Positions 26,287 through 35,324 of a stretch of DNA of 63,150 bases are shown piece by piece (the stretch's first letter is position 1; the number at the start of each line of letters is the position of its first letter). Where the stretch lies: the NCBI GenBank assembly GCA_003242085.1, contig QBML01000030.1, forward strand, positions 1-63,150. The letters run 5' to 3'. The position numbers were made by a program, and so were the translations under genes. The stretch is from Pseudanabaena frigida. Its GTDB lineage: Bacteria; Cyanobacteriota; Cyanobacteriia; Pseudanabaenales; Pseudanabaenaceae. The notes beneath the pieces were generated by a model. That model made no database searches and was not told the DNA's origin. It saw only the letters and a program-made list of their open reading frames with translations.

Positions 26287-26865
26287 TTAGTCGATGAAAC
26301 CCATAAGCCCTGCATTGTCGATGGCATTGGAAGCCACAGGTCTAATGCCACCCATTTCAGAGTAAGTTTCATCGATAACTAAACCTGCTGAACCCACAGG
26401 GCGTTCACCCGCGATATAAAATTTGTCAACAATCACAAACCCATCTTCAACGATCGGGCGTTCGCCTGAGGACATGAATGTGCCTATCACATGCACATCC
26501 CCACTAACAATTGGGCGCTCAGCACCCATGCTGGTGAAAGTGCCGCTAACAACTAACTTGCTAGCTTCGATCGGACGTTCGCCCGAACTATTAAAATATT
26601 CCACTGCGCGAAAACCACCGTCAATAATTGGGCGATCGCCATAATGCTTAAGAGTTTCAGTCACAGTTAACGATCCTTTTTTTTCAATTGGTGCTACGAC
26701 GGGCTTAGATTCTTCTTTCACAGCCAAAGCGGCAATATCGACTGTGCCAGTTTTGGTGGTTGACTCAGTTTCGGATTTAGGTTTGGTAGTGCGAGAAGAT
26801 TTATCTTCTGATTTTGGGCTTTCTGGCTTAATGCTTTCGGCTTTGGGTTCATTATTTGTACTCAT
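26287..26865 (-). CDS. GERPI-repeat hypothetical protein
   Basis: 192 residues, function unknown. The first 60 or so are charged and disordered (Lys/Glu/Ser/Thr/Pro). From residue 64 to about 185 there are six tandem units of about 20 residues with the consensus [LF]xVxxTFxSxGERPIxxxx: the cores read YGDRPI, SGERPI, GAERPI, SGERPI, AGERPV and GGIRPV. The alternating hydrophobic pattern LVVSGTF/VHVIGTF/FVIVDKF suggests short beta strands and a repeat solenoid or sheet. No signal peptide or membrane span. I do not recognise a characterised family. Confidence 0.75.
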   Translation of the reverse strand: MSTNNEPKAESIKPESPKSEDKSSRTTKPKSETESTTKTGTVDIAALAVKEESKPVVAPIEKKGSLTVTETLKHYGDRPIIDGGFRAVEYFNSSGERPIEASKLVVSGTFTSMGAERPIVSGDVHVIGTFMSSGERPIVEDGFVIVDKFYIAGERPVGSAGLVIDETYSEMGGIRPVASNAIDNAGLMGFID

Positions 26866-30555: not shown

Positions 30556-30936
30556 GTGGGTTGGCGTGTACGTGGCGTTCGTGGTGCAACAACAGTTGAG
30601 GCAAATACATATGCAGCCTTAGAGAGGGCTGTACTAGAGCTTATGGAGGAGATCGAGGCGCAAAATGACATCGATCCGCGAGAAATAGTCAGCGCCACTT
30701 TTTCGGCAACAACCGATATTGATGTGGTTTTTCCTGCCAAAATCGCTCGATCGCGATCTCAATGGGAAAATGTGCCACTTTTAGATGTCCAACAAATGTA
30801 TGTTAAGGGCAGTCTAGAGCGTTGTATCAGGGTATTAATTCATGTAAATACGCCGCTCGAACAACATCAAATTAAGCATATCTACTTAAACGGAGCAAGA
30901 GATTTGCGTCCCGATCTTGTCTATGCTCAAATCTAG
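30556..30936 (+). CDS. aroH: Chorismate mutase, AroH class
   Basis: Converts chorismate to prephenate in phenylalanine and tyrosine synthesis. It is the monofunctional trimeric AroH type: 126 residues, N-terminal VRGVRGATTVEAN with the active-site Arg, central PREIVSATFSATTDID, and RCIRVLIHVNT with the second catalytic Arg. The start is a GTG, because the family motif begins only three codons later. A hairpin ends the gene. Confidence 0.95.
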   Translation: MGWRVRGVRGATTVEANTYAALERAVLELMEEIEAQNDIDPREIVSATFSATTDIDVVFPAKIARSRSQWENVPLLDVQQMYVKGSLERCIRVLIHVNTPLEQHQIKHIYLNGARDLRPDLVYAQI

Positions 30937-31019: not shown

Positions 31020-33095
31020 ATGGTCACAAGAATTTTTCTGTGTAACGAGCAGACAGAGCCAGAGATTCGCGATTTCATTCGTGAAGCGATCGCTGATATC
31101 GCTGAAGGGGAGCAGTATATCGTTACGTGGAACTGCGGCAATATTCAAACTCTCAAGGTGGGCGATCGCGCTTATTTTAAGCGCATCGGTAGCGTTAATC
31201 AGGGCTATTTTGCTTCGGGGACAGTGGTGCCTGCGGATCGCGAATACCAACTGAAGCAGCGATCGGCGCGTTATCGCGAACTCAGCGAGGCGTATGACAT
31301 TGACTCTCAGGCTAACAATTTTCGGGTATGGGTGGCTTGGGATGCCTGTGTTAGCTTCGATGAGCCACTCAGGACTGACTATTTGCGCCAGCTACCACAT
31401 TTTCAAGGAATGCCCCTCGAACCGCAGAGTGACGCAGGCGTATTTCGCGAAGAATACGTGCGAATGCTCGATCGCGAGTGGGAGCGCCAAACTCAGAAAG
31501 CATTTCGAGCTGGGAAGGGGATTAGTCTGGTCGATGTGTATTATCGGTGGGGTCTAGAAGATATTCAGCAAGGTTTTCCTCAGGATGCATTGGAGTCATT
31601 TAGGCAAGCCCTGAAACTAAATCCTAATTTCATCAAGGCATATTTAGGTTTGGGAGATGCCCATGTCAGTTTGCGCGAATATGCCAAAGCCGTTGGCGAT
31701 TATGGCAAAGCAATTTCCATGCGTCCCGATAAAGCTCGTCTAGCTTATTTCAAGCGTGGCGAAATTAATTTCTTATTAGGGCAGCTTCAGCAAGCGATGG
31801 CGGACTTTCAGGCAGCGATCGATATCGATCCTAATTACGCGGATGCTCATATGTCCTTGGGCAATACTTACTTTAAGCTCAAGAGTTACGAACAGGCGAT
31901 CGCTTGTTACAGTCGTACTATTGAGTCAAGTCCCGATCGCGACTTAGCGGTTTTTCGGCGTGGGCGATCGCATTACATTCTTAAGGAATTTCCTGAAGCG
32001 CTACGGGACTTTAGCCATGCGATTGAGTTACAGCCTAGTAATGTCGATGCCTATTACTATCGTGGTTTGACCTATTCTCATCCCAGTATTGCCGATGAAA
32101 CCCTCGCTGGCGATGATCTCCGCAAAGCAATTGTCTTGTATCAAACTCAAGGTAAGCCTGAAAAGGCGAGAAAAGCTAAGGAGTTTTTAGAAACCCTCGC
32201 GATCGATTCTTTGCCAAAAGCTAAACCAAGAAGTACCTATGCGATCGCTCCTTCTGAGTCCGCTCAGCCTGAAGTAGTTGTGGAGACTGCCCAGCCTAAA
32301 AATACGATCGTCAATGATGACGAAGAAACTAGCGAGCTAATTATCGAGACTCAGCCAATTGAGATTCCTGTTTCCAGTCCGATCTCCAGTGAAGAGGCGA
32401 TCGCGGCATTTGCTAGTTCTGAGGTTGATAGTCCTGATTCATCTGAGGCGAACGCCAAAGTTGTAGAGGTTGAAAAACTAGTTGAGAAAATTGTCGAGGT
32501 AGAAAAATTAGTTGAAGTTGAAAAAATTGTTGAAGTTGAGAAAATTGTCGAGGTAGAGAAAATTGTAGAGGTAGAGAAATTAGTCGAAGTTGAGAAAATT
32601 GTTGAAGTTGAGAAGGTAGTTGACCGCGTAGTTGAGAAATTTGTTGATCGCGTAGTCGAAAGGATTGTGGAGAAGCCGATTCCTTTTTCAATTGAAGATC
32701 CGAGCACTGCTGAAAAGCTTGCCATGATCTCGGTAATGGCACAGTATATGCGTGATGGGTGGATGGTACGATCGGTTGATAAATCTCAAGTCGGCTACGA
32801 TCTCGAATGCACTAAGGACGGTCTTTGCGAAGCTGTGATTATCAAGAGCTTTACTAGCGATCGCGAATCCTTTGCCATTTCTGCGATCGAGATTGAAAAT
32901 GCCCGTAGCAACAGGGATTTTGTACTGTGGGTAGTAAGTGGTGCTGCTGAGAATCCTGAGTTACGTTGTCTGCGTGGACGTGAACTATTCGAGCAATTCG
33001 ATCTTGATCCGCTTGCGTTTGCTGCCAGAGTCAGACAAGCAGCCGTCCAACTAGAATTTGCGCCAGTATCTCTAGAGATGCCACAATTTGAGTAA
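31020..33095 (+). CDS. EVE-like, TPR, VEVEKI-repeat and NO VEIN/DUF3883-like multidomain protein
   Basis: 691-residue cytoplasmic protein of unknown function. In order: residues 1-115 resemble EVE/PUA-like modules (VTWNCGNIQTLKVGDRAYFKR, then GYFASGTVVPADREY); residues 170-390 hold about six TPR units (ALESFRQALKLNPNFIKAYLGLGDAH and so on); 390-480 is an acidic linker; 481-557 is a tandem hexapeptide tract VEVEKI/VEVEKL ending in VDRVVEKF-VDRVVERI; and 560-677 resembles the DUF3883/NO VEIN C-terminal domain (DGWMVRSVDKSQVGYDLECTKDG, AVIIKS, then FVLWVVSGAAENPELRCLRG). The nuclease-type IEVK strand of that family is here AVIIK, so the catalytic Glu seems lost. EVE and DUF3883 modules are both common in modification-dependent restriction and other defence proteins. 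Domain calls are from pattern recognition; the combination is inference. Confidence 0.7.
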   Translation: MVTRIFLCNEQTEPEIRDFIREAIADIAEGEQYIVTWNCGNIQTLKVGDRAYFKRIGSVNQGYFASGTVVPADREYQLKQRSARYRELSEAYDIDSQANNFRVWVAWDACVSFDEPLRTDYLRQLPHFQGMPLEPQSDAGVFREEYVRMLDREWERQTQKAFRAGKGISLVDVYYRWGLEDIQQGFPQDALESFRQALKLNPNFIKAYLGLGDAHVSLREYAKAVGDYGKAISMRPDKARLAYFKRGEINFLLGQLQQAMADFQAAIDIDPNYADAHMSLGNTYFKLKSYEQAIACYSRTIESSPDRDLAVFRRGRSHYILKEFPEALRDFSHAIELQPSNVDAYYYRGLTYSHPSIADETLAGDDLRKAIVLYQTQGKPEKARKAKEFLETLAIDSLPKAKPRSTYAIAPSESAQPEVVVETAQPKNTIVNDDEETSELIIETQPIEIPVSSPISSEEAIAAFASSEVDSPDSSEANAKVVEVEKLVEKIVEVEKLVEVEKIVEVEKIVEVEKIVEVEKLVEVEKIVEVEKVVDRVVEKFVDRVVERIVEKPIPFSIEDPSTAEKLAMISVMAQYMRDGWMVRSVDKSQVGYDLECTKDGLCEAVIIKSFTSDRESFAISAIEIENARSNRDFVLWVVSGAAENPELRCLRGRELFEQFDLDPLAFAARVRQAAVQLEFAPVSLEMPQFE
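32463..32690 (+). repeat. In-frame tandem repeat coding VEVEKI hexapeptides
   Basis: Tandem 18-base units of the form GTTGAAGTTGAGAAAATT, varying mainly in third codon positions, encode about ten VEVEK[ILV] units. Length is an exact multiple of three, so copy-number change would keep the frame. Confidence 0.85.
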
Positions 33096-33109: not shown

Positions 33110-34723
33110 TTACTGCCAATATAGTCCAACTAAACCATATTCAAAAAACACAGACATCGAAGCAAGTTTTGTAAGAGTTATATTCGCAACTATAAACGTT
33201 GCGATGGGAGCAATATAAGCCCAACTGTTTATAAACTTATCCGTGAGAAAAGCGATCGCTAGAGTGTTGATTGGATAAATATAAAAGCCAAATCTTGGAC
33301 AGTATTTAGTAGGACTCCAAATCTCTGACTGAGCCGCCACAAAGAACATAGCGACTAACATCACACTACAAAAACATACAGAAATATTAAATAAAAGTTG
33401 GTTACCTTCAGGATTAGCGACATCTCTTTTTTTGATGGCGAGGTAGACTAATAAGCTCGTAGAAGCGATCGCACCAAATATCATGCCAGCATCTAGATAT
33501 GCCATAAATCCATTAGATATAAATTGCCCAATTCGATCAATATCGAAATTCAAAATTGCCTTAGTCCAATTTTGAAAGCTGTAAGTAAGCCCACTTGATG
33601 GGCTACTGAGACTTTGGATATTTCCTAATGTTCCGAGTATTTGTTGAAGTGAAATATATTTCCAAAATATATTTAATATAATTGATAGTAATGGAATTAA
33701 AATACCTAAAACTGGACGCTTGTATATAAATAATAAAATTGCACTGATTAGAATAAGTGGATAGACATCATAGACTAATGAACCTGAAACAATTAATAGG
33801 ATTAGTAAAGGAGTATTAATGAATTCATTGTGAATTAGTTCTAGAGTTGACCATAAAATAATAGCTGAGAATGCAAATGCTGACATATGCGGAGAAGGCT
33901 GGGCAACAAAATGAACAAACCCCCAACTTGATGCACAACAAAGAATTGTAATATTGAGCGCTCTCACACTAAAATTCACAATTTCACCAATGCGATACAT
34001 GGCAATACAAGCACTTATCCAAAGAAAAATATTTAGGCTAAAACTCATAAACCATCGATGTCCCTGAATTCCTACCAATGAATTAAGATAGCCATAGAAA
34101 AAACGAGTCAAAAATACTGAAAAAGCAGCATCATAACTTGGTTCTGTGAATATTTTCTCTGACGGAATAAAATGACGCATATCACAGTGCACAGGAAAAT
34201 TGGCATCTTCATAAGAACATTCCCAAGTAAGATTATTATCTTTTCCTGATACATAGTTAGAAGGTTGTCGATCAATTAGTCGAAATGAATATGTGAATGG
34301 AGAGTCTAGAAATAAATGTGTAAAAGAGTTAAAGAAAACAATAGCGATCGCTAAACATAAAATAATTAATTGTTTTCGATGTTGAAAATATTTAAAAAAC
34401 TTGTATCCAATCAAGCTAATTATACTGAGATAGAGAATCCAACTAATAAATTCTAGTTGAGGAGAAATTGTAACTGGTATTCGTAAGGTTATTAAAAATC
34501 CTAATAAAAAATACCATCTGGAATATTTAATATCAAGCGATATTTTAGTAAAAAAATACCACATGCTTATAAAAACAAAAGTTGGTAAAAAATTCAATAA
34601 GCCAATCTTTGTAGAAATCAAAATACTCGTCCAATAGCAATGTCCTATTAATGCAATTAATATGATGCCAATATCTTTGATTTCAAAGGATTTTGGCTTA
34701 TTAGTTTCGCAACTTATCGTCAT
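33110..34723 (-). CDS. Polytopic membrane protein of unknown function
   Basis: 537-residue protein with about twelve hydrophobic helices and one large hydrophilic loop (about 150-205), which carries WECSYEDANFPVHCDMRHF with two cysteines. The loop's position after the fourth or fifth helix and the YDAAFSVFLTRFFYGYLNS segment recall GT-C-like membrane glycosyltransferases, but the acidic catalytic motif is not evident, so I leave it open. It starts 16 bases after the end of the SRPBCC-like gene and is probably co-transcribed with it and with the Rieske gene. Confidence 0.72.
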   Translation of the reverse strand: MTISCETNKPKSFEIKDIGIILIALIGHCYWTSILISTKIGLLNFLPTFVFISMWYFFTKISLDIKYSRWYFLLGFLITLRIPVTISPQLEFISWILYLSIISLIGYKFFKYFQHRKQLIILCLAIAIVFFNSFTHLFLDSPFTYSFRLIDRQPSNYVSGKDNNLTWECSYEDANFPVHCDMRHFIPSEKIFTEPSYDAAFSVFLTRFFYGYLNSLVGIQGHRWFMSFSLNIFLWISACIAMYRIGEIVNFSVRALNITILCCASSWGFVHFVAQPSPHMSAFAFSAIILWSTLELIHNEFINTPLLILLIVSGSLVYDVYPLILISAILLFIYKRPVLGILIPLLSIILNIFWKYISLQQILGTLGNIQSLSSPSSGLTYSFQNWTKAILNFDIDRIGQFISNGFMAYLDAGMIFGAIASTSLLVYLAIKKRDVANPEGNQLLFNISVCFCSVMLVAMFFVAAQSEIWSPTKYCPRFGFYIYPINTLAIAFLTDKFINSWAYIAPIATFIVANITLTKLASMSVFFEYGLVGLYWQ

Positions 34724-34739
34724 TGTGAGAGCTTACCTT

Positions 34740-35324
34740 CTATTTGGAATTGCCATAATACTTAACGTAGTCATCTTTATAAAGCATGAACTGATGATCG
34801 GCTAGATATACAGAGTTATTCCCTCTACCGAATAATTTTTCGCGGCGATAGATCATTTCTATATCCTCTTCATCTTTCTCAATTTTGAGTTTCTCTATCC
34901 CTTTTTGTAGCCAATGTCTTAGAGGGTAAAGCCAAAAAGGAAGTTTGATGTCAACATCAAGAATACTAATTGTTGTGTCCTTCTCAGGATGAGGTAAATA
35001 CTTGAGATCGGTGCTGACAGATATGAGATGGTGAATACTCGGAATATACCAAGGAGAAGGCTTAACATTATAGTTTTTGAATTGAGCTGGTGGTACATAT
35101 TCACAGGTATAAACTTGTCCCATGCTTATCCCTAAGAGTTTCCATGTCTGGCGAACAGTAATTACTCGGCTATGATGTTCGTGGTGCAGAACTTCATATT
35201 TATCTGTATAGGCACTGTGTAAAAAGATATAGTGTTCACTGTCTAGATATGCGGCTACAGCGATCGCGATCGGTGCATCTAGTTCATAGGTTAATGTGAA
35301 TTTATAATTCATGGATAGTGCCAT
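34740..35324 (-). CDS. Putative SRPBCC/START-like protein next to a Rieske protein
   Basis: 194 residues. The opening TLTYELDAPIAIAVAAYLDSEHYIFLH looks like the first strand and helices of the SRPBCC (START-like) fold. The C-terminal DIEMIYRREKLFGRGNNSVYL resembles tails of Rieske oxygenase-associated proteins, though I recall this only loosely. Histidine-rich YEVLHHEHHSRV lies near residues 46-55 and could bind metal. It sits between the Rieske gene (72 bases upstream) and the polytopic membrane gene (16 bases downstream), all on the minus strand. Function unknown. Confidence 0.6.
   Translation of the reverse strand: MALSMNYKFTLTYELDAPIAIAVAAYLDSEHYIFLHSAYTDKYEVLHHEHHSRVITVRQTWKLLGISMGQVYTCEYVPPAQFKNYNVKPSPWYIPSIHHLISVSTDLKYLPHPEKDTTISILDVDIKLPFWLYPLRHWLQKGIEKLKIEKDEEDIEMIYRREKLFGRGNNSVYLADHQFMLYKDDYVKYYGNSK

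Follow-up and report, generated by a model that had tools for sequence, protein, structure and literature searches.

Among the closest described systems to the protein treated here are modification-dependent (type IV) restriction endonucleases, which combine a sensor with a competent nuclease and whose classes, as presented by Bell et al. (PMC7641849), include EVE-PD(D/E)XK, EVE-HNH, and EVE-McrB; the main text of that paper does not contain the terms TPR, DUF3883, cyanobacteria, or Pseudanabaena. In VcaM4I, an EVE-HNH restriction enzyme, the EVE domain is described as flipping 5-methylcytosine (5mC) and 5-hydroxymethylcytosine (5hmC) (PMC7897488). DUF3883 (NOV_C) domains fused to SNF2 helicases have been termed "a novel REase domain" (PMC3710099), and CoCoNuT type IV systems retain a nuclease fold without its catalytic motif (PMC11090510). 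Here we analyzed a 63,150-bp stretch of DNA from Pseudanabaena frigida (assembly GCA_003242085.1, contig QBML01000030.1, positions 1 to 63,150; the window) and, within it, one gene that encodes an EVE-like domain, tetratricopeptide repeats (TPRs), and a C-terminal NOV_C domain. This EVE-TPR-NOV_C protein probably comes from the type IV restriction lineage, is present in all Pseudanabaena genomes examined, and has lost its nuclease site; as judged from its domains, it probably still recognizes nucleic acid that bears a chemical mark but does not cut it. We recognized no paper on this protein in the open-license literature searched.

Like the EVE-PD-(D/E)XK and EVE-HNH type IV enzymes (PMC7641849; PMC7897488), the window protein carries an EVE reader and a nuclease-family domain in one chain, and its front end is homologous to EVE-TPR-HNH_2 proteins from Nostoc (L078), Fortiea (L080), and a third locus (L005). 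Unlike those enzymes, it lacks the catalytic acid, has at least five TPRs in place of one TPR-like stretch, contains a VEVEKI spacer, and is encoded in every genome of the genus instead of being patchily distributed. A plasmid protein of Tolypothrix (P0002) shares the order EVE, TPR, NOV_C and is homologous along the EVE domain with the first TPR and along NOV_C, but is only 394 residues long, has one TPR-like stretch and no VEVEKI tract, retains an intact D...EIK, and is encoded on a mobilizable plasmid. The SNF2-DUF3883 proteins (PMC3710099; here L010 and L133) share the NOV_C family but are longer, fused to a helicase (judged by eye for L010 and L011), and catalytically intact. CoCoNuT systems, as described, resemble the window protein in restriction lineage and loss of the motif and differ in being McrB/McrC-based, multigenic, and predicted to target RNA (PMC11090510).

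RESULTS

Loss of the catalytic acid in the NOV_C domain

An earlier reading of the window from sequence only (the sequence-only reading) had proposed an EVE-like N terminus, about six TPRs, a hexapeptide tract, a long coil, and a NO VEIN/DUF3883-like C terminus whose ExK motif had lost its acid; the coil excepted, these largely held up. The last 151 residues, scanned alone, matched NOV_C (PF13020) with 38.3 bits (cut-off, 22.1), and all 15 copies scanned (the window copy, at 38.7 bits, and 14 others) gave this match. Where the SNF2-like (by eye) protein L010 reads GYDI...FIEVK, the window protein reads GYDL...VIIK, with Asp594 and Lys609 kept and the acid replaced by Ile607. All 26 genus copies, of which that of G310 is truncated at its start, have V or I in place of the acid, and this rules out a fault confined to one genome.

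As a baseline we took all PF13020 matches in 194 genomes of the phylum, which numbered 50 in 46 genomes; two were the window copy and another copy of the genus, and the other 48 were compared. D...(E/D)xK was retained in 47 of these 48 matches (30/30 among loci returned by the search and 17/18, read by eye, among loci fetched later), the remaining one (L172) being undeterminable with its ExK half alone in frame. L167 was counted as intact though it lies amid stop codons, and when L173 to L176, whose scores do not exceed the cut-off and which by eye resemble another EVK family, were left out, 43 of 44 were intact. Absence of the acid is thus ruled out as a general trait of the family. In sister genera the positions of the Asp, the acid, and the Lys read D/A/K (G325 and G326), D/S/R (G322), and K/E/K (G324), so that all four readable copies lack one or more catalytic residues; the G323 genome gave no NOV_C match.

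The genus copies therefore do not carry the complete residue set of an active NOV_C PD-(D/E)XK nuclease. The protein pairs the sensor fold of a type IV restriction endonuclease with a domain lacking competent nuclease residues; as its catalytic site proved incomplete when checked, we do not class it among the restriction enzymes. The structure model of the C terminus was poor (pLDDT, 56.6; best Foldseek E value, 0.43; VIA-align Z scores of at most 6.8); no PD-(D/E)XK restriction enzyme was prominent in the fold search, which is uninformative at such model quality, and RnlA toxin rows (Z, 4.3 to 4.9) stood amid unrelated rows and were not used. The NOV_C fold is, for these reasons, assigned from sequence alone.

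The N-terminal EVE-like domain

The Pfam EVE profile (PF01878) scored the first 168 residues at 12.8 bits, below its 23-bit cut-off, and a relative (L006, an EVE-HNH protein) at 24.1 bits, above it. The EVE-like character proposed earlier was borne out by an AlphaFold2 model of residues 1 to 168, built on 11 sequences (pLDDT, 87.3; pTM, 0.84), in which the PUA-like fold looked for is present. Foldseek ranked 2ar1, which we take to be an EVE domain, first (E, 2.8e-6; TM-score, ~0.55), followed by 2eve (E, 1.2e-4; ~0.5). Alignment with VIA-align gave Z scores of 11.6 for 2ar1 (root mean square deviation, 2.8; 127 residues aligned) and 10.7 for 2eve (2.8; 122 residues), while the THYN1-DNA structure 5j3e scored 10.0, the best of the YTH rows 9.7, and VcaM4I (6yex) 8.8. 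2eve and THY28/THYN1 are described as EVE domains (PMC7897488). The modeled N-terminal fold is thus PUA-like, with EVE as the nearest family by 1 to 2 in Z.

When a five-row profile was compared with Protein Data Bank sequences, the two top matches were 2ar1 (E, 0.041) and 2eve (E, 0.048), both weak, and in that weak alignment Tyr85 of the window protein pairs with Tyr82 of 2eve. Y82 of 2eve and W82 of VcaM4I are given as pocket residues (PMC7897488), and Tyr85, the one pocket residue mapped from these structures, does not vary among the 12 rows aligned, the window included.

TPRs and the hexapeptide tract

Pfam TPR_1 matched with an E value of 5.6e-38 and five stretches over threshold, and one further degenerate TPR is possible, which makes "about six" a fair count. 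The VEVEKI tract proved to be a degenerate 18-bp tandem repeat with eight hexads in the window copy, five to nine in the 25 full-length copies of the genus, and none in three full-length sister-genus proteins, whose TPRs and NOV_C are separated by 26, 51, and 423 aligned residues. The repeat unit is of six residues, not a heptad, and the proposed long coil was not borne out. With NCBIfam the whole protein matched TPR-type models (best 25 of 32); the EVE part gave a TruD match at chance level only, and the NOV_C part gave none. The overall proposal of a reader that TPRs link to a domain of a nuclease family, one that lacks its acid and hence possibly binds rather than cuts, is supported. The open reading frame was likewise confirmed, and the features are listed in Table 1.

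Table 1. Coordinates of the gene, its domains and key codons, and its upstream neighbor in the window
Feature	Position	Strand	Details and basis
Whole gene, EVE - TPR - acidic linker - VEVEKI tract - NOV_C	31020..33095	+	691 residues, ATG start; open reading frame analysis, genus orthologues
EVE (PUA-like) domain, residues 1-160	31020..31499	+	AlphaFold2 model and VIA-align
Codon of Tyr85, aligned with pocket Tyr82 of 2eve	31272..31274	+	Profile alignment
TPR region, residues 168-395, first TPR 172-203	31521..32204	+	Pfam TPR_1, TPR_2 (172-203)
Fast-changing acidic linker, residues 396-479	32205..32456	+	Median dN/dS 0.188 (residues 396-490)
VEVEK[IL] hexapeptide tract, residues 480-553	32457..32678	+	Hexad counts
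NOV_C/DUF3883 (restriction-endonuclease-like) domain, residues 557-691	32688..33092	+	PF13020 over cut-off
Codon of Asp594 (GYDL), catalytic Asp position, retained	32799..32801	+	NOV_C alignment
Codon of Ile607, ExK acid position, lost	32838..32840	+	NOV_C alignment
Codon of Lys609, catalytic Lys position, retained	32844..32846	+	NOV_C alignment
Chorismate mutase, upstream neighbor, 83 bp away	30556..30936	+	PF07736, E 1e-46

An intact relative on a plasmid

The EVE domain, used as a tblastn query against 72,556 plasmid records, gave one match, on the mobilizable plasmid of Tolypothrix sp. PCC 7712 that encodes P0002 (WP_264268008.1, annotated as a "DUF3883 domain-containing protein"). The gene adjoins a site-specific integrase gene and lies 1.4 kb from a cytosine methyltransferase gene. 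NOV_C is over its Pfam cut-off in P0002 (39.6 bits), while TPR_1 (27.2 bits; cut-off, 27.8) and EVE (13.3 bits) are under theirs, and the residues VGYDL...VENVEIK keep all three catalytic positions intact. BLASTP aligned the window protein with P0002 over the EVE domain and first TPR (39% identity; E, 1e-44) and over the linker and NOV_C (30%; E, 3e-24). P0002 itself matched eight other plasmid records, in its C-terminal part alone, and no phage record; with the window protein chiefly the TPR stretch was matched among phage records (four records), and pattern-based scans of viral contigs returned no relative. A 33-residue remnant in genome G024 (L182:1507-1605), 70% identical to the C-terminal end of P0002 and lying in a 60-residue frame, may be what is left of a lost copy.

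A NOV_C tree was built from 23 rows (6 from the genus, 3 from sister genera, P0002, and 13 others picked from those fetched); in it, P0002 grouped with the Pseudanabaenaceae (support, 99/95) and outside them (96/82). In an EVE tree of 18 rows the family formed a clade (85/89) with the branching order L110, L107, L109, genus; L110 and two others were flagged as long branches. The simplest reading of these sequences is that the ancestor was intact, that the acid was lost before G322, G325/G326, and the genus separated, and that the Asp was lost separately in G324.

Among front-end relatives, L078, L080, and L005 carry HNH_2 (E, 8e-15 to 3e-13) and one TPR-like stretch each, below Pfam cut-offs, and L005 and L078 match HNH/restriction models of PADLOC. 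A gene of this EVE-TPR-HNH_2 type with an in-frame stop was seen in a genome of another family (L122:793-2019, minus strand), and in another class of the phylum an EVE-like domain occurs in long proteins with an AAA+ motor, McrB-like by eye (L125 and L126).

Distribution and selection

All 26 genus genomes, the window included, have the EVE domain (92 to 98% identity) and the NOV_C domain (83 to 95%), with one full copy per genome in a single open frame of 680 to 726 residues, except in G310, where the gene is split across two contigs. G302 has in addition a stand-alone EVE gene (L106:5720-6211; 34% identical), followed by small open reading frames that are toxin-antitoxin-like by eye. Among the 12 genomes of the order outside the genus (of 38 in all), the EVE domain was present in 5 (52 to 74% identity) and NOV_C in 4; the EVE-TPR-NOV_C architecture was found in three of seven sister genera, with its halves on different contigs in G325, and the EVE domain was missing from seven genomes of the order, from four genera. 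Phylum-wide samples yielded the EVE domain in 6 of 292 genomes by protein search (3 of them from the genus) and in 12 of 386 by profile (4 from the genus), and the window NOV_C domain in 5 of 292 (3 from the genus and 2 of the SNF2 type). The sequence-only reading had named universal presence in cyanobacteria with a housekeeping phenotype as grounds against its interpretation; every genome of the genus has the gene, and few of the other phylum genomes sampled do. The patchy spread typical of defense genes is not what we found in the genus.

Ratios of nonsynonymous to synonymous substitution (dN/dS) were calculated by the Nei-Gojobori method for 300 pairs of 25 copies of the genus; because many pairs were saturated, medians were taken from pairs with dS between 0.05 and 1.2 alone (32 to 223 pairs per region). 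Median dN/dS was 0.026 for the EVE domain, 0.048 for the TPRs, 0.188 for the linker (Table 1), 0.046 for residues 491 to 555, 0.036 for NOV_C residues 560 to 650, and 0.046 for the tail. The gene is thus under strong purifying selection outside the linker (0.026 to 0.048), and the nuclease-type domain is held almost as strictly as the reader (0.036 versus 0.026). Between genera, the TPRs and NOV_C diverge faster than the EVE domain, sister-genus identities to the window protein being 52 to 76% for EVE, 29 to 44% for the TPRs, and 36 to 40% for the C terminus.

Gene neighborhood and matches to defense systems

In 23 of the 26 genus loci the gene is preceded by a chorismate mutase gene in the same orientation, at 68 to 94 bp in 18 of them, at 169 to 388 bp in three, and at more than 1 kb with intervening genes in G302 and G282; of the three other loci, L103 is cut off by a contig border, and no such gene is seen in the sequence available for L092 and L105. 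It is not beside the gene in the three sister-genus loci. Downstream, gene content varies, a PepN-like gene coming first in some loci, and in the window three genes follow (537, 194, and 146 residues, the last Rieske-like) that were seen at none of the other genus loci inspected; the 537- and 194-residue proteins (window 33110-35324) had no Pfam or NCBIfam match. A restriction-modification (R-M) pair stands just downstream in 4 of the 25 other loci of the genus (G301, G305, G308, and G310), 3 of the 25 ending within 1.3 kb downstream; in G305 the restriction enzyme is of the HindVP type (PF09519; E, 7e-137) and its partner is a C5 methyltransferase. The four pairs are that at L088:3142-5099 (minus strand) and similar ones in L089, L090, and L103, the families having been tested for L088 alone. 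The site downstream of the EVE gene looks like an insertion spot. A 192-residue protein encoded elsewhere in the window (26287-26865) contains, by eye, several copies of a GERPI-type motif, and 7 of the 25 other genus loci fetched have a relative close to the gene.

The proposed survey of homologues for co-occurring genes thus returned chorismate mutase (23/26) and otherwise a variable downstream region with no fixed partner. The statement that no partner genes of a known system surround the gene stood for the window, where the four near neighbors had no PADLOC match, but not for the four loci with an R-M pair; that pair, considered as a partner, is present in just 4 of the 25 other loci, and with no neighbor fixed enough, none can be named. 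Against PADLOC-DB 2.0.0 the window protein itself matched TPR models on its repeats (E, 8.5e-5 to 0.0094, one labeled C3a198) and, weakly, TmtA at its C terminus (E, 0.0065). That the gene belongs to a mobile defense island is ruled out by its presence in 26 of 26 genomes together with the conserved upstream synteny.

Host methylation and HIP1 sites

The HIP1 palindrome GCGATCGC occurs 113 times in the window (1.06 expected), for example, at 31086-31093 and 31162-31169 within the gene, and CGATCG occurs 238 times (12.8 expected), about once per 265 bp. Orphan CGATCG methyltransferases, often forming 5mC, are reported to accompany HIP1, and methyl-C-directed mismatch repair has been proposed in this connection; Pseudanabaena PCC 7367 is listed as lacking a recognizable enzyme (Elhai, PMC4390886). 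We found a C5 methyltransferase of one group in all 26 genomes of the genus (G000:C65:29696-30814, L226, in the window genome); of 20 copies fetched, the 19 others were 74 to 83% identical to that of the window genome. This group is perhaps the CGATCG enzyme. At an E value of 1e-60 it was present in 8 of the 12 other genomes of the order, that is, in four of five with the EVE gene and in four of seven without it; G322, which has the EVE gene, had no enzyme of the group at this threshold. These counts leave the case for the methyltransferase as a constant partner weak.

DISCUSSION

We propose, with moderate confidence, that a modification-dependent restriction endonuclease of the EVE-PD-(D/E)XK type was domesticated and that the protein descends from it in a catalytically dead form. 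Such a nuclease would have been adopted by the chromosome and would have lost cutting while retaining its reading and adaptor parts. The EVE domain may still flip out and read a modified base in DNA (or RNA), NOV_C may bind nucleic acid or act as a structural part without cutting, and the expanded TPR array with its VEVEKI spacer may recruit a host protein, a cutting response thereby turning into a reading or recruiting one. If the mark is host made, loss of the nuclease would have been needed.

Several points weigh against this proposal. The EVE profile score is below threshold and the Foldseek TM-scores are just ~0.5, and at the C terminus, with its poorly modeled structure, the restriction-endonuclease-like fold is inferred from the family match. 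Glu604, five residues ahead of Lys609, is retained in 26 of 26 copies of the genus and could, as a relocated acid, rescue catalysis; some PD-(D/E)XK enzymes use such an acid. G324 retains ExK, the Asp position alone being altered. The position of P0002 is unresolved in the EVE tree and, with a single intact relative on a plasmid, the direction of change is read from one near outgroup and the NOV_C baseline of the phylum.

The EVE domain might instead read modified RNA (tRNA or rRNA), with TPR-NOV_C as a scaffold, in which case the protein would be a housekeeping factor of RNA metabolism and modified DNA would be irrelevant. Its genus-wide presence, the occurrence of YTH (an RNA reader) and ASCH structures among the fold matches, and a gene resembling, by eye, an RNA methyltransferase upstream in seven loci all agree with such a role. 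We nevertheless regard it as rather unlikely, given that relatives on the EVE branch are fused to restriction-type nucleases (HNH_2, HNH, and the intact NOV_C of the plasmid) and that no RNA gene is in fixed linkage.

Within the proposal of a domesticated type IV enzyme, the candidate mark, on a speculative view, is host 5mC at HIP1 sites, put forward because a 5mC methyltransferase is genus wide and HIP1 sites abound in the window. The protein would then bind 5mC in CGATCG/HIP1 sites and recruit a partner through its TPRs as a reader of host DNA methylation, and a dead nuclease site would be explained as self-protection, since a live 5mC-dependent nuclease would endanger its own host. In this specific form the idea is unlikely to hold; two observations tell against it, namely that G322 carries the EVE gene but no enzyme of the group at the threshold used and that other genomes have the enzyme while lacking the EVE gene.

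The sequence-only reading saw a candidate defense protein, and the gene could be imagined as a working antiphage factor, sensing phage DNA modification and acting via TPR partners or cutting with a relocated acid. Ancestry, domain content, and the R-M pair downstream in some loci are in keeping with this, but one full copy in every genome of the genus, low dN/dS outside the linker, loss of the ExK acid, conserved synteny with chorismate mutase, PADLOC matches limited to generic TPR models and a weak TmtA, and the lack of a relative in the pattern-based viral contig scans make it decidedly unlikely that this is a present-day defense gene. Defense fits the ancestry and not the gene as it now stands. 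That the protein acts with chorismate mutase in the control of aromatic metabolism is highly improbable, for the usual proximity on the same strand gives way to wider spacing or intervening genes in some loci, the mutase gene was not seen beside the gene in three sister-genus loci, and we know of no tie of EVE or NOV_C to that pathway.

It is often stated that cells recruit restriction and other defense genes for functions of their own; to our knowledge, there are few cases in bacteria of a fixed dead-site descendant beside a living relative on a mobile element. The sequences described here form such a series, from an intact EVE-TPR-nuclease on a plasmid through lineages with differently broken sites to a genus with a fixed, conserved dead form. 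Provided that the EVE domain has kept its base reading, the protein would be a candidate for recognizing DNA or RNA modifications in bacteria. Should the base be 5mC at HIP1 sites, a bacterium would possess a methyl-DNA reader derived from a restriction enzyme, and the long-standing question of what purpose HIP1 and its orphan methyltransferases serve would become approachable.

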